A DNA stretch of 20,377 nt from a virus: the IMG/VR virus record IMGVR_UViG_3300042516_000108, positions 1 to 20,377 of that record; one strand, given 5' to 3'. This document shows, piece by piece, positions 1,006 to 20,377 of the stretch (within the stretch, counting starts at the first letter, position 1; the number at the start of each line of letters is the position of its first letter). Both the position numbers and the translations under genes were made by a program. The notes below the pieces were generated by a model. That model saw only the letters and a program-made list of their open reading frames with translations, did no database searches and was not told where the DNA came from.

Positions 1006-2994
1006 TTAACTCCAAGGACCAATAGCGGCCATAGTATTAGAACCGAAGGGAATAAAGCTGATATAGCTACCCATATTAACAAAATTACTATTACCCGGTG
1101 CAGCACTAAATGCAATCTGAGGGGTAATTGTAACTGAGTCTACGGTTGTAATCATACCTGTAATAACGGCGGTATAAGTATTGTTTGATATGGTAGAACC
1201 TGTTATATTACCGCCAGAGGTTGTAGTAAATGACGCACTGTCTTGAGTTCTTGTAGCACCACCGTTTGTACTTGGTGTACCGAGTACATTAAAGTTTATT
1301 GTTGGTAGATTAGTAACAAAACTTTCAGTAAACTTTAGAGCAATGTGTCTAGCAGTTGTAGTTCCCATTGTTAAATGAAGATAGCCACGAATAAGATATG
1401 TAGTATTAGCAGCTAAGGTAATAACATCTTGAGGAGTATTAAATATATTCTGGTCACCCGTAGCGTTAGAAATAGCTCTAGCAGATGTTAATAAGCTTGT
1501 TTGCTCTGTAACCATTACACCACGACCCGAAGCCGTGTTTGCATAGGTAACTTTACCATCATATTCTAAACAACCACCAACCGATGTGCTTGGAGTTGTA
1601 GTAGTCAAGGTAAATTTAGGACTCTGTAACTCAACTAAGGATTCTAAAACACCAGAACTAAGAGTTGTACCTTGGATAGTTGTTAGCCTTGCTCCAGTAC
1701 CTTTGCTTGTCATGTTAATGGATAAACCGAAGCTATTTGTAGTAGGAGCTGGAACAATATCTACTCTACCATTTACATTGTTTTTTATGGTTTCGCCGTT
1801 TTGCAAGAATATACTACTATTAGCAGTTAAAGAGCCTGTTACTAAGTCACCTGTTGACCACTCAAAAGAACTACCATCAATAGTACCAGTAGAAGGAGAA
1901 ATTATAAAATCATAACCATCACTACCTATAGAAATATCAGCAGCACTAATAACAACGCTACCTGCTCCATTATCTATTGATAAAACACTAGATCCCGGTC
2001 CAGTAATAGCCCCAGTAATATCCACACCACTAGTGAATGACTGCTTAGCGGTAAATGTCTGGGTGTCGCTTAAGTAAGCTGGAGACTGCCAATCTAAAGT
2101 TGCAGACTTACCAACTACTGACTGGATACCTAAAACTTGTTTAGCTGTGCCGACATCAGCAGGAAAAATAAAATTAATATCACTGGCTAAGGTGTCTGCT
2201 GGTCTTAGTCTTAAGTAGTTAGATGAGTCTAAATCGTAAAGACGAATACCATTGGCATCGTTGGTGTATAGTCCAGTTCTGGCAGTAATGGTGTTTGGAA
2301 CATCGTTACTACGGCCCGGACCCATTACTAGGATCTCGCCGTTGTTTCCTACATTTATAACCTTACCAATGTTTTGAATCAATGTAGTGGCTCCGGTTGG
2401 TCTAACATTGGTTAAACCACCAGTAGCTCCTACATATAAAGTTTCATTAACAGCGTAACCATTAGTATTAAGGTTCTTAGCTACACCTAGGATTGTATAG
2501 TGACCGTTGTTAGAATCAGCAATGTCAGTCTCTAGTAGACCAACAGCTGGCATTTTAGCTGAGTTATTAGCCTCAGCAGGAGCAATTAATACTCGGTTAC
2601 CTGAATAGCCTACTACATAAACAGGTGTACCTTTAGAAATAAGAGAACCTGTTTGATTGCGGCATTCTTGCTGGGTAGCCCCTAGCAAATAGCCTTTAAA
2701 ATACGGAGCATCAATTTGAATTGTAGACTGGATAGTTCCTGTTACAACTAAAGCATTAGTACCGGAATCAAAAGTAAAGTTAGAACTAGCTCCGAAAGCC
2801 CCGCTGTTGTTAAACTGGACCTGTGTATTAGATCCTGCTGGGGTTGTAGCAGTTGAAGGTGAAAGCTCATATACCGTTCCCCCGATGTTAGAATAAATTT
2901 TCTTATCGGCGGTATTAATAGCAATTTCACCATCAACCAAATTAGCGGTAGTTGGAGCAACAGAACCACGCTTTGGTTTGATGATGCTAGCCAT
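1006..2994 (-). CDS. Tail fibre / receptor-binding protein with C-terminal beta domain (662 aa)
   Basis: Residues 1-44 (IIKPKRGSVAPTTANLVDGE, then IAINTADKKIYSNIGG) form an Mtd_N-type domain. Residues 54-87 (GSNTQVQFNNSGAFGASSNF onward) and 116-234 (GSLISKGTPVYVVGYSGNRV, then MPAVGLLETDIAD, then NIGKVINVGNNGEILVMGPG, then GRSNDVPN) are modules I know from many tailed-phage fibre proteins. After a Ser/Thr-rich shaft, residues from about 500 to the end (SARAISNATGDQNIF, TYLIRGYLHLTMGTTTARHI, then FGSNTMAAIGPWS) look like a beta-sandwich tip of the kind that ends short fibre proteins. Two cysteines only (111 and 474). ATG preceded by GGAGG, 9-nt spacing. Likely contacts the host surface; receptor unknown. 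Confidence 0.88.
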   Translation of the reverse strand: MASIIKPKRGSVAPTTANLVDGEIAINTADKKIYSNIGGTVYELSPSTATTPAGSNTQVQFNNSGAFGASSNFTFDSGTNALVVTGTIQSTIQIDAPYFKGYLLGATQQECRNQTGSLISKGTPVYVVGYSGNRVLIAPAEANNSAKMPAVGLLETDIADSNNGHYTILGVAKNLNTNGYAVNETLYVGATGGLTNVRPTGATTLIQNIGKVINVGNNGEILVMGPGRSNDVPNTITARTGLYTNDANGIRLYDLDSSNYLRLRPADTLASDINFIFPADVGTAKQVLGIQSVVGKSATLDWQSPAYLSDTQTFTAKQSFTSGVDITGAITGPGSSVLSIDNGAGSVVISAADISIGSDGYDFIISPSTGTIDGSSFEWSTGDLVTGSLTANSSIFLQNGETIKNNVNGRVDIVPAPTTNSFGLSINMTSKGTGARLTTIQGTTLSSGVLESLVELQSPKFTLTTTTPSTSVGGCLEYDGKVTYANTASGRGVMVTEQTSLLTSARAISNATGDQNIFNTPQDVITLAANTTYLIRGYLHLTMGTTTARHIALKFTESFVTNLPTINFNVLGTPSTNGGATRTQDSASFTTTSGGNITGSTISNNTYTAVITGMITTVDSVTITPQIAFSAAPGNSNFVNMGSYISFIPFGSNTMAAIGPWS

Positions 2995-4109
2995 TAATAG
3001 GTTCCTCCGTCAACTAGAACATTCTCTAAAGGATAAGCCGAGTAACCAGCATCATAAGCCCCAAATAAAGAGATGTTATTTATCTTATATGTTTCACCTG
3101 AAAGTAAGTTTAAATCTTGGTTCATTGTCCAGCAACCAGTGCTGCTTAACCAAGTGATTGTCTTATCACCATCCACACCAGCTTCTAAGGAAATACCACC
3201 ACCATTTGCGGTGGTGTTTGTTGGGCTAGATACCTTACCTAGTTCAATTAAAGCATCTTCAACGGTTAGGTTTTGTGTATTAATTGTTGTGGTATCACCC
3301 TGTACAATCAGGTCACCAGCAATAGTCAAGCTACCCTGCATTGTTTTAACCCCAGTACCAGCTAGTGGTAGATAAACTGAGGATAGATCTGGGATATCTG
3401 TTGTGGTCAGTAGTCTAAATGTTGGGGTTGTGCCTACTCCAGCTGCGGGACCAACTAATACCTTATTGGCATCCTGAGCATTTAGAGTAATAGCAATCGT
3501 GCCTGTAGTTGTAACTGGAGAGTTAGCTACAGACATAATGTTAGGTACAGACACACCAACGCTATAGACGCTACCAATGGTATTGCTAGTAATACGATCA
3601 TCAATATAAGTCTTTAGTGACCCAGCATTAACAGTCTTCTTAGAACCAGCTACAATCAAGTCGGCAGCTAGGCTTGGTACAGTAACTTCAGTAGCATTCT
3701 GCATATTAACAGCAGCAGTACTCAGTGTAACCGAACCAGTTGAAGATAGCGATACAGTTGAAGCAAGGGTAATACCAGTTGAGTTCATGGTAATAACATC
3801 GGATGATCCGTTGTTATATACAAATGTAGTTAGTGGACCAACTGTTAGTTTCTTACCACCAGAACCGTTGAATAAGGTATTATCAGCAAATGTCTTAGTT
3901 CCAGCTACGGTCTGGTTTGAGGAAAGATCTAGGAAAGCGCCAAGACCACCAATAGCAATAACGCTTGCGGCAGTATTGCCACTGACTCCTAAACCATAAT
4001 AAAGTGTTTGTGTGTTTTCATTAAAAGCTAATTCTGCGTTAGAAAGAGTAGAGGGTGCTCCAGATCCACCAGCAGCTAGCTTTCGTTTAATTCGGATTGT
4101 TGATGCCAT
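2994..4109 (-). CDS. Tail fibre / adhesin protein (371 aa)
   Basis: Starts with a variant of the same Mtd_N-type unit (TIRIKRKLAAGGSGAPSTLS, then NAELAFNENTQTLYYGLG, 1-41). The middle is Ser/Thr/Gly/Asn-rich beta repeat, with DLSSNQTVAGTKTF at 61-74 and VYLPLAG at 245-251. Residues 265-320 contain GDLIVQGDTTTINTQNLTVE, DALIELGKV and GGGISLEAGVDGDKTITW, a block I recognise from tail fibres of marine T4-like phages. The C-terminus is PLENVLVDGGTY. One cysteine (326). ATG with AAGGAG, 6-nt spacing. Its TAA overlaps the following ATG (TAATG), so the two fibre proteins are probably made in a fixed ratio. Confidence 0.86.
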   Translation of the reverse strand: MASTIRIKRKLAAGGSGAPSTLSNAELAFNENTQTLYYGLGVSGNTAASVIAIGGLGAFLDLSSNQTVAGTKTFADNTLFNGSGGKKLTVGPLTTFVYNNGSSDVITMNSTGITLASTVSLSSTGSVTLSTAAVNMQNATEVTVPSLAADLIVAGSKKTVNAGSLKTYIDDRITSNTIGSVYSVGVSVPNIMSVANSPVTTTGTIAITLNAQDANKVLVGPAAGVGTTPTFRLLTTTDIPDLSSVYLPLAGTGVKTMQGSLTIAGDLIVQGDTTTINTQNLTVEDALIELGKVSSPTNTTANGGGISLEAGVDGDKTITWLSSTGCWTMNQDLNLLSGETYKINNISLFGAYDAGYSAYPLENVLVDGGTY

Positions 4110-4119
4110 TTAAGACTCC

Positions 4120-4419
4120 TTAAGAAAAGTTACCGCCGTCGAGCACATCAGCTCTACGCTCGTTTATCCATTTTGAACCACTCCAAGTTAACATATCATT
4201 AACAGCAAGACTTGTTAGCTGCACATCGGTTAAACCTGCGAATGTTGTAACATCTTGAACTACATAAGGTAATGCAGACCAAGTACTAGTTCCGTTACCT
4301 ATTTTAAACTTCATAGGAGAAAAGCTTGTATTAATACCAATTTCCCCTATGGCTAAAACGGGGTTACTGGTACTCCATTGGGTATCAGTACCCCGTCTTA
4401 GTTGAATTTGAACAGCCAT
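4120..4419 (-). CDS. Small fibre-tip-like protein with Mtd_N-type domain (99 aa)
   Basis: Residues 1-55 (QIQLRRGTDTQW, then LAIGEIGINT, FKIGNGTSTWSALPYV) are the beta-rich unit that begins many phage tail fibres and resembles the N-terminal domain of the Bordetella phage tropism determinant Mtd. It continues with VQDVTTFAGLTDVQLTSLAV and DMLTWSGSKWINERRADVLD, ending GGNFS. So it consists of an attachment-type domain and a short DGG-ending tail, with no long shaft. ATG with GGAGG, 7-nt spacing. Likely a structural component that trimerises with or caps other adhesins; that role is inferred. Confidence 0.82.
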   Translation of the reverse strand: MAVQIQLRRGTDTQWSTSNPVLAIGEIGINTSFSPMKFKIGNGTSTWSALPYVVQDVTTFAGLTDVQLTSLAVNDMLTWSGSKWINERRADVLDGGNFS

Positions 4420-4434
4420 AACAAGTCCTCCATA

Positions 4435-4710
4435 TTATGGGAATGAATTATAAAAACCACCACTAATGCTAACAGTTCCCCCATAAGTAGCATCTGGAGC
4501 ACCACCATCTAGGTTACCGTAAGTTATGGTTACGGAACCTAGGGTGGTATTTTTCCATGTTTTAGTTACTGAATCATAGCTTATGATTTGCTGATCTTGT
4601 TCGTTTGTTATTTCAAAATCAGGTATAGTATCATCAAAAGCATCAATAAGATCTACTACTTCATCTCTTGTAAGTGGTTGTCTGTTATAGTTACGCCTTG
4701 GTCCGGGCAT
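4435..4710 (-). CDS. Short adhesin-cassette protein with DGG motif (91 aa)
   Basis: Probable small virion or tail-tip protein. The basic N-terminus MPGPRRNYNRQPLTRDEVVD leads into an acidic helix, then ISYDSVTKTWKNTTLG, the short Tyr...Trp motif found in phage fibre proteins where it precedes a cap, and then NLDGGAPDATYGGTVSISGG near the C-terminus. The DGGAPD-x-x-YGGT pattern recurs in marine phage structural proteins as far as I recall. ATG with GAGGAG 9 nt upstream. No membrane segment or cysteine. Its mid and C-terminal layout matches the next protein, so both may be short versions of one module. Confidence 0.75.
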   Translation of the reverse strand: MPGPRRNYNRQPLTRDEVVDLIDAFDDTIPDFEITNEQDQQIISYDSVTKTWKNTTLGSVTITYGNLDGGAPDATYGGTVSISGGFYNSFP

Positions 4711-4822: not shown

Positions 4823-7800
4823 TTATCCAATCACCATGAAACATACCGTATTAGAACTGTTGATTGGAGTCGCAGAGGCAGTATTAGCGAGAGCATGAGT
4901 AATAGTAAATGTATTATTGCCTGTAACATCACAGCAAACAGTACTTTTCAAGTTTACATCACTAACCGACTGACCCACACAACTAGCAACTACTGCCCAA
5001 TTTTGGTTACTAAATCCTTGAGTAAGTGTTACGGTGAATGTGTAACTGTTAGAAGTCGTTATGCTTGCAATATTTCCACTGCCATGGATTATTGGAGCAT
5101 TCGCTGATCCCTGTGAACTAAATGTTCCCCACGCTCGTACTCCAAATAGCGGAGCAGAACCAGACGGAGTATTCAGCGTTGCAGATCCTACAGTGATACT
5201 CGTGCTTGTCTTAATGGCTCCATCTACCTCCAGTTTGTTAGTGGGAGCAGTTGTGCCGATGCCCACATTACCACCACTTACTACAGTAACTCTGTCAGTT
5301 CCTTGAGTCTGAATTTTAAACGATCCAGAGTTTCCTGTGCTTGTGCCTAGTACCTGATCTCCAGAACCAAGGGTATTACCAGCAACATCCATCTTGCCGC
5401 TGATGTCTACACCACTAACAGCTGTATTTACATAAGCTTTAGTAGCGACTTCATCTGTGGCTACTGGATTAGCTGAAGAACTTTGTACATAGAATAACTT
5501 AGGTGTTTCTGCACCAGCTGGAGTAAGTCTCAGTACAGTATCGCCAATAGCACCATCTCCAGAAGCTGCGCTAAGTCTTTCAATGCTTAAACCATCATTG
5601 TTTGAAGAGCCTAGTAGTTTAATCTTAGCTGAATTACCAGTAAGAGTTAGGTCACCAGCCACTGAAAGGTTATCATCTACCTGAACAGTGCCACCAGTTG
5701 AGTCTAGTACTAGGTTACCACTGCTGGTATCAATCTCATTATCCGCAGTAACACCAACCCGAGTAGTACCTAAGGTAGCTCCAGCAAATGTTGGATTAGC
5801 TGCGGTATGAATGTCTTGTGGTAAGCTTAGGGTAACTGCTGCTGATTCTGAGCCAGAACCAGTTACAGTTACTTGATTGGTTGTACCAGCAATTGTAGCT
5901 ACATAGTTACCTGTGGTATCAGTACCAAGAGCTACTGAGTTAGCAGCAATAGTAGCAACGCCAGATGCATTGATTGTCACATCTCCACTAACTTTAGAGA
6001 ATGTATATTGAGGAATTCTAGTAACAGCTGATTTTCTATTTGCACCAGCTCCACCATCGTCTACTATAATAAGATCAGCATCAGCTAAATCTGCTCCAAT
6101 ATCTGTACCACCGTCAATATCAAGAGCAGCAATAGATACCTTATTAGCAGTAGCGATTGTGCTTAGCTTGCTATCTCCAATGCTACCTGCCAACATAGTG
6201 TTACTTACAGTACCAGTATCATTACTACCAATTAAAGTACCTGTTGTAGTTGGTAAGGTAAATGTAGTTGTACCAGCAGTTGCTTGAGCAACTATGGTAG
6301 AAGTACCGCTAGTTGAACCATTTAGGATTAGGCCGGTCTTAGCTTTAATTTCACCGTCTACATATAGCTTAACACCGGGGTCTGTTGCTGTACCAATAGC
6401 AAAGTTACCAGTTGTGTGGAACAGCATTGCTTTAATTACACCGTTGGTAGCTAATCTTAGATCCTGTGCGCCATAGCTAGTTAAAGTATAACCAGTAGTT
6501 GCATCAATTTGCAGTGGTTTGTTAAAATAAAACGAACCCCTATCTGTAATAAGATGGCCATGAGATGAGTTTTGTGCGCCTATTTCGACATAACCTGCAC
6601 CACTGGTAAAGCGTGGTACTGCGGTTTGCCCAGTATTTGTTGTAACTACATGTAGAACATGGCTTGGAGTGGCTGTGCCAATACCCACTCTATTATTTGC
6701 AGCATCTACAACTAAAGTATTGCTATCAAAGTTTAGACCGTTTGGTGTTGTAATAGCAGTGCCTGTAATTGTTAGGGTATCTGTATCAGCATCTCCCAAT
6801 ACAACAGCACCATTGACATTAAGAGCGCCTGTAACAGTACCACCAGCTAGTGGTAGAGCTGCGCTGGCTGTTCCCTGAGCTGTTACGGCAACATCATACG
6901 CTGTCTTAACAGCTGTGCTTGTGGCTAGGGTGTTGCTATCGGTTTGGTCCACAGCGTTAGAGCGGACTACACTAAGGGTTCCGCTGGTTAAAGCTAGGCC
7001 ATTATTAGCAGCGATCTTAACACCACCAAGAACAGAAGAGGTAGCTTCAGCTAAAGAAATATCACCGTTGTTGATATTAATACCACCATTTGCAGGTACT
7101 CTAACAAAGCCTAGAGCAGTCTGAGAAGCAACATTGCTTGTTAGAACGCGGCTTACACCAAAGTTCCGTAGTGTAGCTGTTAAACCAGATACTGAAGTAC
7201 CTGTTGTTAACCAGACTTGGAGAATCTTATTAGCTCCAGTAGAAATCCAGAACTTCTGATTCCCAATATCAGCAGAGTTAGCTGAAGGTCTATATGTTCT
7301 ATTTGAACTATCTGTTAATATCATTAACTCTGGATTTTCTCCAACTAGTGTATTAACAGTAAACTCATATCTATCAAAACCAGCTTGATTGGTTTGAGCA
7401 GCACTTCCAAAAGTTAAAGCAATTGATTGTGGAACAGCCTGACCGCCACCATATAATGAATAACCAGCAAGTGTATTTAGGTTTACAGCATCATAGGTAT
7501 TAACTGGATCTGCAACATTAATAATTTTCTTATTCTTAGCATCATAGTTGGTAGCCGATAAACCAAGGAACTGACCAACAGACCATTGTTTGTTTGCAGC
7601 ATCGTTAGAAAGAACTGGATCTGCAACGCCTCTAATGGTTTGGTTGCTTGAGTTTCTTAAGGCAACAAAGGTGTTATTAGTAGAGTCCCAATATACAGCA
7701 TTGCTTTGGATATTGGTAACTAAAGAAGAAGCAAGATCTCTATTAACAATACCGGTAATTCTACCTTTATTGGTTACGGTAATCTCTGGAATATTAAAAC

Positions 7801-9520
7801 CAGAGTTAGCATATGTTCCAGCAACAGCACCAGTATTAGTTAACTTAGCATCTGCTATTGCATCTGAACCAAGTCTATCAACTGATAGTGTACCAGTATT
7901 AATAGTATTAGCATCAAGAGCTGTAACTTGAATTGTAATATTAGCACCGCCATCAAACGAAGTGGCTGTACCAGTAGCACCACCACCAAGGCCAATTGTT
8001 CTGGCAGTCTGTAAAGTAGTTGCTGTACTTGCATTACCAGATAGGGCAGCTGTGATAGTACCAGCAGCAAAGTTACCACTGGCATCTCTGGCTACAACCT
8101 TATTAGCTGTGTTAGTTGTGGCTGCGTCTACAGCAAAAGTCTGAGCCGCTGATCCGTTATAATTATTACCAGTAAGGTAGTTACCTCGGGTTAAAGTATA
8201 TAGGTTACTACCAAGAGCAACACCAGAAATGGTGCTATTGGCTAGCTTTGCATTTGCAATGGTGCTATTAGCAATCTTATCATTAGTAACTGCAAGGTTA
8301 TTAATATTAGAAGTGTCTACTGCGTTTGTAGCAAGAGTTGTGCTAATACTGGTTGTACCTGAACCAGACACAGCACCGCTTAAACTAATAGACTGATTAC
8401 CTGTTAGGTAAGTATTGGTATCAATAGTTACAGTACCAGCACCATTCTTCTTAATAAAACCATTAGTACCAGCAGCTAGAGCAGCAATAGCAACAACTAA
8501 TGCAGTATTGGCTTGTGAACCGATGGTGATTAGATTACTTACATTTCCTGTAGCTGTACCAGCTAAGGTAGTTAGGTTTGCTGCTAGCGGTTGTTTGTTA
8601 GATAAAGTAGTATCTAAGGATGTAAATTTATTATAAAAGTAACTAGCTGGGTGGTCTGTGTAGTTCCAGTTAACAAGTGTCTCATCGTTTAGATAAGGAA
8701 TAAAGACCTGCTCTAAGAAGTACTTGTTAACAGCTGCTCTACCAACTCTATCTGCATCTTCTGGCTCTGTTTTAGCACTTGGTGGGAAGAAGTCACCCTC
8801 AAAACCGGGCATACCCATATTAATAATGGAGAATGTACCCATGTCTAGATCCTTGTTGCCAAGGAATGGACCGTCGATTGCTGATTCATCGAACTTAAGG
8901 ATAAACTCTTGGTCTACCTTCCACATAAGTTCTTGAATTAGATTAACAAGTTGGGATACCTGAAGGTTTAACTGACCACTTGTTAGGCGTGAACCGGGAG
9001 CAAAGTTCACAACCTTTTCAGTTGAGACTGTTCTTCTTCTGATAATGATATCATCCCCTTCATCTAAACCGGGAATAATAATTGTCTCATTTTCACCGGG
9101 AGGGGTGGCAGCAGCTAGTAACTTAAATGTTCTAGATGTACCTAGGTTAATATCATAATATGGTCCTGTGCTTGCAGCTGGGGCTGGTACATACTCATCA
9201 CTAGTTGCATTAGCAATATCCTTAATAGTAATTGTCTTATTGATAATATCCACAGTAAACCACTGCTTTGGTAGCTTGAACATAAGGCGACGGTCAGCAA
9301 TGGTTAGCTGAACACCTTCATACTTACTACTACCTAGGGTATTAACTGGGAAGATTCTTTCAATTTCCAATTGGTCTTGTGCAGGAATACCATCTAATAG
9401 TTCAACATCTGCAAAAGAGAATGTTCTTGTAACATAGTTATAATCGGGGTTAACTGTGTTAGCAATATTGCGGTATTCAATACTAGTTCTTACTAGATCT
9501 AAATTATCGTATGTAGCCAT
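4823..9520 (-). CDS. Tail fibre with T7 gp17-type N-terminal attachment domain (1565 aa)
   Basis: Trimeric receptor-binding fibre anchored to the tail. The first ~205 residues resemble the T7 gp17 anchoring domain, notably FAPGSRLTSGQLNLQVSQLV (173-192) and the following helix. From about 305 the protein is a chain of fibre modules: GNQSISLSGAVSGSGTTSIS (374-393), YLTGNNYNGSAAQ (448-460) with VVARDASGNFAAGTITAALSGN (475-496), two ADPV-x-x-x-DA units (633-641, 670-678), LPLAGGTVTGALNVNG (889-904), and three [VA]-[GA]-I-G-T repeats (945-949, 1040-1044, 1419-1423), two of them leading into KL-x-VDG. Residues 1459-1565 (FGVRAWGTFSS onward, with GSGNIASITTSNSYTFTVTL) form a compact beta-type tip known from many phage fibres. 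T7 gp17 has 553 aa. ATG with AAGGGAG, 4-nt spacing. It directly follows tail tubular B, without the core protein genes T7 has there. Confidence 0.92.
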   Translation of the reverse strand: MATYDNLDLVRTSIEYRNIANTVNPDYNYVTRTFSFADVELLDGIPAQDQLEIERIFPVNTLGSSKYEGVQLTIADRRLMFKLPKQWFTVDIINKTITIKDIANATSDEYVPAPAASTGPYYDINLGTSRTFKLLAAATPPGENETIIIPGLDEGDDIIIRRRTVSTEKVVNFAPGSRLTSGQLNLQVSQLVNLIQELMWKVDQEFILKFDESAIDGPFLGNKDLDMGTFSIINMGMPGFEGDFFPPSAKTEPEDADRVGRAAVNKYFLEQVFIPYLNDETLVNWNYTDHPASYFYNKFTSLDTTLSNKQPLAANLTTLAGTATGNVSNLITIGSQANTALVVAIAALAAGTNGFIKKNGAGTVTIDTNTYLTGNQSISLSGAVSGSGTTSISTTLATNAVDTSNINNLAVTNDKIANSTIANAKLANSTISGVALGSNLYTLTRGNYLTGNNYNGSAAQTFAVDAATTNTANKVVARDASGNFAAGTITAALSGNASTATTLQTARTIGLGGGATGTATSFDGGANITIQVTALDANTINTGTLSVDRLGSDAIADAKLTNTGAVAGTYANSGFNIPEITVTNKGRITGIVNRDLASSLVTNIQSNAVYWDSTNNTFVALRNSSNQTIRGVADPVLSNDAANKQWSVGQFLGLSATNYDAKNKKIINVADPVNTYDAVNLNTLAGYSLYGGGQAVPQSIALTFGSAAQTNQAGFDRYEFTVNTLVGENPELMILTDSSNRTYRPSANSADIGNQKFWISTGANKILQVWLTTGTSVSGLTATLRNFGVSRVLTSNVASQTALGFVRVPANGGININNGDISLAEATSSVLGGVKIAANNGLALTSGTLSVVRSNAVDQTDSNTLATSTAVKTAYDVAVTAQGTASAALPLAGGTVTGALNVNGAVVLGDADTDTLTITGTAITTPNGLNFDSNTLVVDAANNRVGIGTATPSHVLHVVTTNTGQTAVPRFTSGAGYVEIGAQNSSHGHLITDRGSFYFNKPLQIDATTGYTLTSYGAQDLRLATNGVIKAMLFHTTGNFAIGTATDPGVKLYVDGEIKAKTGLILNGSTSGTSTIVAQATAGTTTFTLPTTTGTLIGSNDTGTVSNTMLAGSIGDSKLSTIATANKVSIAALDIDGGTDIGADLADADLIIVDDGGAGANRKSAVTRIPQYTFSKVSGDVTINASGVATIAANSVALGTDTTGNYVATIAGTTNQVTVTGSGSESAAVTLSLPQDIHTAANPTFAGATLGTTRVGVTADNEIDTSSGNLVLDSTGGTVQVDDNLSVAGDLTLTGNSAKIKLLGSSNNDGLSIERLSAASGDGAIGDTVLRLTPAGAETPKLFYVQSSSANPVATDEVATKAYVNTAVSGVDISGKMDVAGNTLGSGDQVLGTSTGNSGSFKIQTQGTDRVTVVSGGNVGIGTTAPTNKLEVDGAIKTSTSITVGSATLNTPSGSAPLFGVRAWGTFSSQGSANAPIIHGSGNIASITTSNSYTFTVTLTQGFSNQNWAVVASCVGQSVSDVNLKSTVCCDVTGNNTFTITHALANTASATPINSSNTVCFMVIG

Positions 9521-18819: not shown

Positions 18820-20377
18820 TTAGACTAGTTCACAACCATTGGCAGTACATGCCATTGTGTGTGAAGACTTAGTTGTATCTTCTTTCTCATAATCTGACAG
18901 TTTATTAAAGTCAACATCTGGCTTGGGATGCATGTTGTATGTTCTTGCATCAATCTCTTCAAAGGGAGCTTGAGCGTAAACATGGTCTGACTTGGGCAGG
19001 AAAGAGATACCTGAAATTGAATCAAAGTTATCCCATACCCATTGACCTACTCCAATAAACTCATCGTCAGTATAATTGACAGTGATACTTGGTTTGTGAT
19101 TGCAGTAATGATCCTGATAGGCTTTCCATAGTTTAAGATGCTCAATAGCCGTCAGTTCTTTCTGGGTGATTGAACCTTGTGGGGCTTTCTGAGCAAAGGT
19201 AAACACGGCAGTACTAGCTGGATTCATTACGCAATCTTCTACTGGAATACCGCTATCGGCCATCATGTTATACAGTGGGTCTTTCTTATCAATGCGGACT
19301 CTACGATAATAGAATTCAGCATAGCGTGGGTGTAACCCACTGGATGCATCAGCTAGGCAGGAGGTTGTACCTTCTGGCTTAATGCATGTGATAGACTTAC
19401 TTGGGGTAATACCAAGCTTATCAGCCCACTTAAGGTTAGTGATAGTAGCAATGTCTCGGAGTTTTTCCAAGGCATACGCTAGCTTGGCATAACCTTCTTG
19501 GCCGCTAGTTAGTTTGTTATCAAAGATACCAGTCATGGATACGCCAAGTAGACGCTCTTCTTCAGAGTTCTTTCTGAATTCGTCATTCAGATAAGGGAAC
19601 TTGGTGAACATGCTCTGGATTGTTCCAATGATGGTAGCCTGTTCAATCTTTCTAGCCAGTGTTTCCACAGTATCTGTAGCCTTAACAACGATTGTTGATA
19701 GGTTGCAGAACTCGTTTGGCTTTAGAATGATCTCTGAGCAGGGGTTAGTACCGTAGTTGGACCAAGCTCTACCACTTTTGGCAGCAATTAGATTCATTGC
19801 TTCGCGGTTGCAAATACCACGCTCACCTGAATGTGAGTTATACAATGAAGTCCATTCTTCCAAGAACTGGCCTAGGGGTGGCTTGCAGTTGTAGATGGCA
19901 GAGTTATTAGCCAAGGCACGATGGCCTGCTGTTTCCCACCAAGCACCACTCTTGCAAGTAGCCATCTCTCTGTCCGATAGATCGCTGAGTGAGATCATTG
20001 CTGAGCGGCGCACACCACCAACAATAACAGACTGAGCAATCTTGCAGCAGATATCGTGGCACTCCAACGGAGTTAGTCTACGGCCTTGGGCCTTGTAGAA
20101 CACGCCTACGATAAACCGCATCACTTCCTCCAGCGGAGCAGGACCGCTTGCACGGCCTCCAAAGGTCTTTAGACGGCTTCCTGAAGGACGGACTAGGCTA
20201 GTGTCCCACTTGGGGTGCAAGCCGTCATATAGGCTGGACATCAGATGCTTGAGGGCATCGCACCAACCTTCACGGGAATCCTCAACAACAAACACGGTGT
20301 TGAAATCTTTTACAATATTCTTTGGAACAGCTGGTAGCTGCTCTACACAGCGGCGTTCCACAGAATAGCCTACGCCT
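18820..20377 (-). CDS. nrdJ: Adenosylcobalamin-dependent (class II, monomeric) ribonucleoside-triphosphate reductase, 5'-truncated
   Basis: Reduces ribonucleotides to deoxyribonucleotides for phage DNA synthesis, using a B12-generated thiyl radical. The reading frame is open to the right edge: GVGYSVERRC lies at the edge, so a start codon at 20361 (GTG) is only an internal valine. Counting that valine as residue 1, the active-site motif NPCSEI is at 206-211 and FCNLS at 218-222. N206, C208, E210 and C219 correspond to N406, C408, E410 and C419 of the Lactobacillus leichmannii enzyme, so about 200 N-terminal residues are missing, including the first cysteine of the redox pair. The C-terminus ends CTANGCELV: two cysteines five apart, matching the swinging-arm pair that re-reduces the active site in the monomeric RTPR type. 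VGGVRRSA is at 114-121. Stop TAA; the next gene begins 10 nt on. Such genes are common in marine podoviruses. The family is very secure; the preference for triphosphates is inferred from family. Confidence 0.96.
   Translation of the reverse strand, partial: GVGYSVERRCVEQLPAVPKNIVKDFNTVFVVEDSREGWCDALKHLMSSLYDGLHPKWDTSLVRPSGSRLKTFGGRASGPAPLEEVMRFIVGVFYKAQGRRLTPLECHDICCKIAQSVIVGGVRRSAMISLSDLSDREMATCKSGAWWETAGHRALANNSAIYNCKPPLGQFLEEWTSLYNSHSGERGICNREAMNLIAAKSGRAWSNYGTNPCSEIILKPNEFCNLSTIVVKATDTVETLARKIEQATIIGTIQSMFTKFPYLNDEFRKNSEEERLLGVSMTGIFDNKLTSGQEGYAKLAYALEKLRDIATITNLKWADKLGITPSKSITCIKPEGTTSCLADASSGLHPRYAEFYYRRVRIDKKDPLYNMMADSGIPVEDCVMNPASTAVFTFAQKAPQGSITQKELTAIEHLKLWKAYQDHYCNHKPSITVNYTDDEFIGVGQWVWDNFDSISGISFLPKSDHVYAQAPFEEIDARTYNMHPKPDVDFNKLSDYEKEDTTKSSHTMACTANGCELV

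Follow-up and report, generated by a model that had tools for sequence, protein, structure and literature searches.

C-terminal DGG peptides are matched in class to the N-terminal head domains of the next-encoded proteins in a fibre gene cassette of a marine T7-like phage

The window analysed here, the whole 20,377-base virus record IMGVR_UViG_3300042516_000108, carries a T7-like structural module that lies entirely on the − strand, and open reading frame (ORF) and family scans recover from it, in order, a portal, a scaffold and a capsid protein, two tail-tube proteins, a T7-type fibre, genes for proteins of 91, 99, 371 and 662 amino acids (aa), a holin and a small gene. The similarity of its portal protein, with about 30% identity, puts it in the neighbourhood of pelagiphages and roseophages, and the window represents a marine T7-like phage; the single close relative found, L001, has an identical gene order. 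Our subject is the four genes between fibre and holin, and the relation between a DGG-containing peptide at the C-terminus of one protein (hereafter the tail) and the small N-terminal domain of the protein encoded next (the head). A sequence-only reading had proposed that distinct subunits interlock, perhaps by way of short adaptors, and that three of them have DGG ends, and the four ORFs and three ends are confirmed: the DGG stands 24, 6 and 5 residues from the C-terminus in the 91-, 99- and 371-aa proteins, with no second copy in any of them, and a sequence scan found none in the 662-aa protein. Shuffled sequences place a DGG within the last 10 residues in 0.3–0.8% of cases per protein, and all three are retained in L001, whose proteins are 64–87% identical.

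The 91-aa protein (4435..4710; this and all features below are on the − strand), the putative first subunit of a chain, has no detectable head domain and ends in a long P-type tail, NLDGGAPDATYGGTVSISGGFYNSFP (4438..4515), where the DGG is part of a widespread 26-residue pattern, NLDGG-x5-YGG-x(4-8)-xGG; the protein is 71% identical to the C-terminal part of a 123-aa protein of L001, and the N-termini differ. The 99-aa adaptor (4120..4419) consists of an Mtd_N head of the R-R-G type (MAVQIQLRRGT..W; 4264..4419), a short linker and a short N-type tail, VLDGGNFS (4123..4146), of the DGG-N-F class. In the 371-aa middle subunit (2994..4109), a K1-type head (RIKRK-GAP type, MASTIRIKRKLAAGGSGAPSTLSNAELAFNE; 3975..4109), recognised from a profile match and relatives, is followed by a body and by a short T-type tail, VLVDGGTY (2997..3020), of the DGG-T-Y class; the C-terminal 126 residues of the protein are 44% identical to S-CBS2 gp051. 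The codons of this last DGG contain a GGAGG (3004–3008) that is also a plausible ribosome-binding site of the 662-aa gene, an overlap common in relatives. The 662-aa distal subunit (1006..2994) has a K2-type head (KPKRG, MASIIKPKRGSVAPTTANLVDGEIAINT; 2860..2994), supported by comparison with L001 and by structure prediction, a variable shaft, a conserved C-terminal region and no tail. Its residues 1–88 are 86% identical in L001, a stretch of 240 shaft residues (89–328) has no counterpart in the L001 homologue, and residues 329–662 (1009..2010) are 60% identical; from its position, this last region is the probable receptor-binding end. Within the 240-residue stretch, residues 110–252 match proteins of Synechococcus and Flavobacterium phages that are fibres or fibritin-like.

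The sequence-only reading had given the 99-, 371- and 662-aa proteins the same type of beta-domain start. This stands for the 99-aa protein, whose start is an Mtd_N domain (PF18454, E 4e-9, 36.7 bits against a curated cut-off of 26.3), and has to be weakened for the other two, for which a Pfam search gave no PF18454 match and which are related to Mtd_N at the level of profile and fold only. With hhalign, 36 columns of a profile of KRS/KRG-type starts, including that of the 662-aa protein, could be aligned to the profile of Mtd_N (E 1.9e-5, probability 78%). AlphaFold2 modelled the 99-aa head with a predicted local distance difference test score (pLDDT) of 89–96, and Foldseek matched the model to phage hyaluronidases with a probability of 1.00; residues 1–40 of the 662-aa protein were modelled at pLDDT 87–95, and the best PDB matches of its predicted head were phage hyaluronidases, Mtd and collagen trimerisation domains, all with weak E-values. 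The models support, without proving, a head fold that is common to these proteins and probably trimeric. Matches of the 99-aa protein to PDB entries with identifiers beginning 8pr, which look like designed propellers, were rejected as spurious. Searches of the PDB returned no solved gp36, gp37 N-terminus, crAss001 gp24, bbp9–Mtd or tail–head complex.

The tail is not peculiar to the window. Among 80 viral contigs picked for their Mtd_N genes, the distances of DGG from the protein ends form two sharp peaks. A DNA pattern for NLDGG-x5-YGG, searched without reference to Mtd_N, found at least 120 viral stretches, and among the matches listed it was C-terminal in 112 of 113 ORFs, 22–26 residues from the end, on otherwise unrelated bodies of 45–2160 aa. 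The DGG end is indeed conserved independently of the shafts. Such DNA patterns worked, whereas tblastn with the 24-residue tail alone gave no matches, probably owing to the low-complexity filter. In bacterial and archaeal genomes a stricter pattern had four matches in 257 billion bases against about two estimated by chance, and the tail is therefore essentially viral.

The invariant tail residues use all or most of their synonymous codons, which indicates that selection acts on the protein level. This bears on a rival explanation, that a terminal DGG is merely the ribosome-binding site of the next gene (GGAGG) read in frame. At many loci the terminal DGG is indeed coded by GGAGG about 9 nucleotides 5' of an overlapping ATG, as in the window, where the DGG of the 371-aa protein is coded GGAGGA immediately 5' of the 662-aa start. 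The DGGs of the 91- and 99-aa proteins, however, are coded GGTGGT and GGCGGT and have separate ribosome-binding sites 3' of the stop; the first NLDGG and the YGG, some 40–65 nucleotides further 5', vary at third positions; and a ribosome-binding site leaves the P/A and F/Y letters of the tails unexplained. As a general account this explanation is mostly refuted, and we give it hardly any credence, but such a role can coexist with that of the peptide in some joints.

The association between tail and following head was compared over about 370 loci, and matching tails and heads recur in hundreds of other phages, T4 among them. Among the matches listed, an Mtd_N gene came directly after 98 of the 100 long tails with enough downstream sequence; of 1239 gene ends that lack a tail, 14 (about 1%) had one. 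The association extends to classes: the head after an xP tail is of the R[RN]G type, that after an xA/S tail R[RN]D, that after a DGGx[FY] tail KRS and that after a DYG tail of the BPP-1-Mtd type. In the joint table, heads of the Mtd_G class had a long P-type tail upstream in 86 cases and a long A-type tail in 8, Mtd_D heads a long A-type tail in 34 and a P-type tail in none; K1 heads followed N[FY] tails 9 times and T[FY] tails 17 times, K2 heads T[FY] tails 67 times and N[FY] tails never, and BPP heads DYG tails 46 times and T[FY] tails 7 times. Off-diagonal cells were mostly zero, DGGN[FY] tails stood before K1-type heads only, and where no head followed, 3209 gene ends lacked a tail and 61 carried one. 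Short tails of the form D-[GAS]-G-x-[FY] were found on the upstream gene at 57 of the 96 KRS-type-head loci with such a gene, and loci gathered by their BPP-1-Mtd-type heads had DYG tails upstream. Proteins that themselves bear a head had both a tail and a following head in 94 cases, neither in 257, a tail only in 26 and a following head only in 16.

Within the long tails the correspondence narrows to single residues. We took as the tail letter the second residue after the first DGG, with P or Y expected before R[RN]G and A or S before R[RN]D, so that the variable head position is residue 10 (G or D). Agreement was seen in 145 of 153 distinct pairs, and a P-type tail never preceded a D head. 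Column 10 was the head column most informative about the tail letter (0.70); column 14 came second (0.59), the next column reached 0.37, and when letters were shuffled within clusters of similar heads, the observed agreement was reached in none of 5000 trials. Matches to a hand-made composite query modelled on L107 served solely for choosing annotated phages. Six joints of isolated phages, examined only after the rule had been formed, all agree with it. These are S-CBS1 (tail P, head RNG), PSS2 (S, RRD), Stenotrophomonas AXL_1 (A, RRD), a TM7 phage (V, RRG), Arthrobacter phage Ingrid gp20–21 (P, RKG) and Pointis gp39–40 (P, RGG); the genes upstream of Ingrid gp20 and Pointis gp39 have no canonical terminal tail.

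Covariation of this kind could also arise by common ancestry without any contact, if tail and head are inherited together as a single DNA cassette and recombination swaps the genes upstream of it. The unrelated bodies upstream of the tail are in keeping with this, and so is the head tree, which, built on 49 columns, is poorly resolved and yields just two independent pairs on supported branches, concordant in nearly all of 200 pairings; shared ancestry is thus still partly possible. On the other hand, with column 10 excluded, 16 of the 41 D heads resemble a G head no less closely than they do any other D head, and the tails nearly always switch along with column 10; the association is concentrated in two head columns and not spread over the domain; and the rule is unchanged in isolated phages from five host phyla. 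On balance we regard a mere cassette as unlikely.

Successive joints within one genome usually differ in their letters. A K1 head is followed by a T tail leading to a K2 head in 28 cases, a K2 head by a DYG tail leading to a BPP head in 21 and an Mtd_G head by an A tail leading to an Mtd_D head in 11, next to same-class series of K2 to K2 (8 cases) and BPP to BPP (9 cases). The window fits the pattern, with P before Mtd_G, N[FY] before K1, T[FY] before K2 and then no tail. A further possibility is that all tails bind a common third partner, such as a chaperone, the baseplate or the T7-type fibre, the adjacency of head genes reflecting an adhesin operon only. The D-x-G core common to all tails would suit such a partner, as does the absence of a tail–head contact from the AlphaFold2 model of the 91- and 99-aa proteins joined in a single chain by reading through the TAA, in which the tail had a pLDDT of about 50 and was unplaced. 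A common partner does not account, however, for tail letters that follow the class and even single residues of the next gene's head, or for the several genomes holding two joints with different letters, and in T4 the established partner of trimeric gp36 is gp37, bound at its N-terminal region (PMC3004832). This explanation seems to us quite improbable.

The pairing by class, the single-residue covariation across a gene boundary and the T4 precedent together argue for direct docking of tail to head. We consider it probable that successive, probably trimeric fibre subunits dock end to end, C-terminal peptide on N-terminal head, with several partly orthogonal specificities; since tails and heads fall into matched classes, a subunit would mostly recognise its proper neighbour only. 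The four proteins of the window would then form successive segments of one appendage, assembled in gene order: the 99-aa adaptor would receive the tail of the 91-aa protein at its Mtd_N head, and its own DGGNFS tail would dock on the 371-aa protein at the RIKRK-GAP head. The DGGTY tail of the 371-aa protein would in turn dock on the KPKRG head with which the 662-aa protein starts; this last protein would end the chain and probably bind the receptor. For the window phage, it is an inference that the subunits touch directly, are trimeric and lie in this order along the particle, and that the last of them binds the receptor.

Besides the unplaced tail and the weak head tree, several points weigh against end-to-end docking. 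The tail classes were defined and counted on identical loci, and many heads have no recognised tail upstream; among isolated phages, Syn19, S-P4, OhMyWard and ReqiPoco6 have Mtd_N-type proteins with no such tail on the gene before. T[FY] tails stand before both K1 and K2 heads and sometimes before BPP heads, so that the orthogonality is incomplete. The eight exceptions to the P/A–G/D rule are all A-type tails before G heads and belong to two variant tail families, in which P- or V-type endings come after the second GG.

The strong support for interlocking subunits with short adaptors does not extend to the two receptor-binding fibres that had been suggested: three tails and three heads alternate, so the series 91, 99, 371, 662 reads as one chain, and the pattern suggests that the 662-aa protein, tail-less and variable in its shaft, is at the distal end. 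The particle may nevertheless carry more than one receptor-binding protein, because the T7-type fibre (1565 aa; 4823..9520) is separate and its end has no DGG tail. This fibre gives the sole match to the N-terminal attachment domain PF03906, just under the curated cut-off (E 3.6e-5, 23.9 bits against 25.2), and none of the four chain proteins matches it. Scans of the main ORFs turned up neither a reverse transcriptase nor template and variable repeats, although no search was aimed at repeats and the window is a fragment.

Known systems show related joints. T4 gp36 ends in ..VQDFGYY and the next gene product, gp37, begins with a KRS head; the corresponding tails of two T4-like relatives are ..DYGTF and ..DFGAY. 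A D-x-G-x-[FY] end followed by a KRS-type head is thus found at 99 to 371, at 371 to 662 and in T4 itself, but T4 has one such joint, with a D-F-G-x-Y tail, and the window has three, each of its own class, in a T7-like virion. We found no paper naming the gp36 tail peptide in the literature searched. BPP-1 shares the head-domain family and has a D-x-G tail, ADLGGIA, on bbp9, the gene preceding mtd; it differs in head and tail subclass and in having a diversity-generating retroelement. In Streptococcus pyogenes prophage 315.1, HylP, of which Mtd_N head structures have been solved (6x3m, 2c3f, 2dp5), has its head directly after a Tal-like tail-protein gene ending in ILDGGNQ, but it has an enzyme body, M at head residue 10 and a siphophage baseplate setting. 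S-CBS2 gp050-gp051-gp052 have joints in the same succession as the window (..SGGSF, then a RIKKR-GAP head and EIDGGTF, then a KLRRS head without a tail), in a gene layout that is not T7-like. There gp051 (L201, 11242–12366) has the appearance of a fibre-chain subunit, with both a head and a tail, and its annotation as a head decoration protein is probably wrong. crAss001 has a tail on gp24 before the head of gp25; the paper on its structure is silent on these two proteins and describes the outer fibre proteins as poorly resolved.

Other endings may represent further tail classes. Proteins ending in ..SPFLLMGV lie directly before R[RN]G Mtd_N heads in L054 and L185, and BPP-type heads are preceded by ..EIYGFV in L308 and by ..FATAIAVALG in L319, L323, L337 and L344. 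Elsewhere in the window, a ribonucleotide reductase gene (18820–20376; phrog_367) adjoins the portal region.

To our knowledge, the ordered joining of different fibre proteins has been worked out in no more than a few model phages. The individual domains are already known, and so is the T4 joint; in the literature searched, which covered few subscription journals, we found nothing that describes the tail peptide, the classes into which it falls or how general it is. It seems somewhat more plausible than otherwise, to our minds, that a general address code exists in tailed phages of many bacterial phyla, in which a few specificity residues of a short D-x-G C-terminal peptide match the class of the small N-terminal head on the next subunit. 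If so, the composition and order of multi-protein fibres would be predictable from sequence alone, and T4 gp36–gp37, Mtd and HylP would all be instances. With a readable tail–head code, very many unannotated fibre genes could be given a position and partners, and distal receptor-binding subunits could be recognised. Such a code would account for the exchange of shafts and tips with assembly left intact, and the joints of T4 gp36 with gp37, of Mtd with its fibre and of HylP with its tail would become tests of one mechanism.

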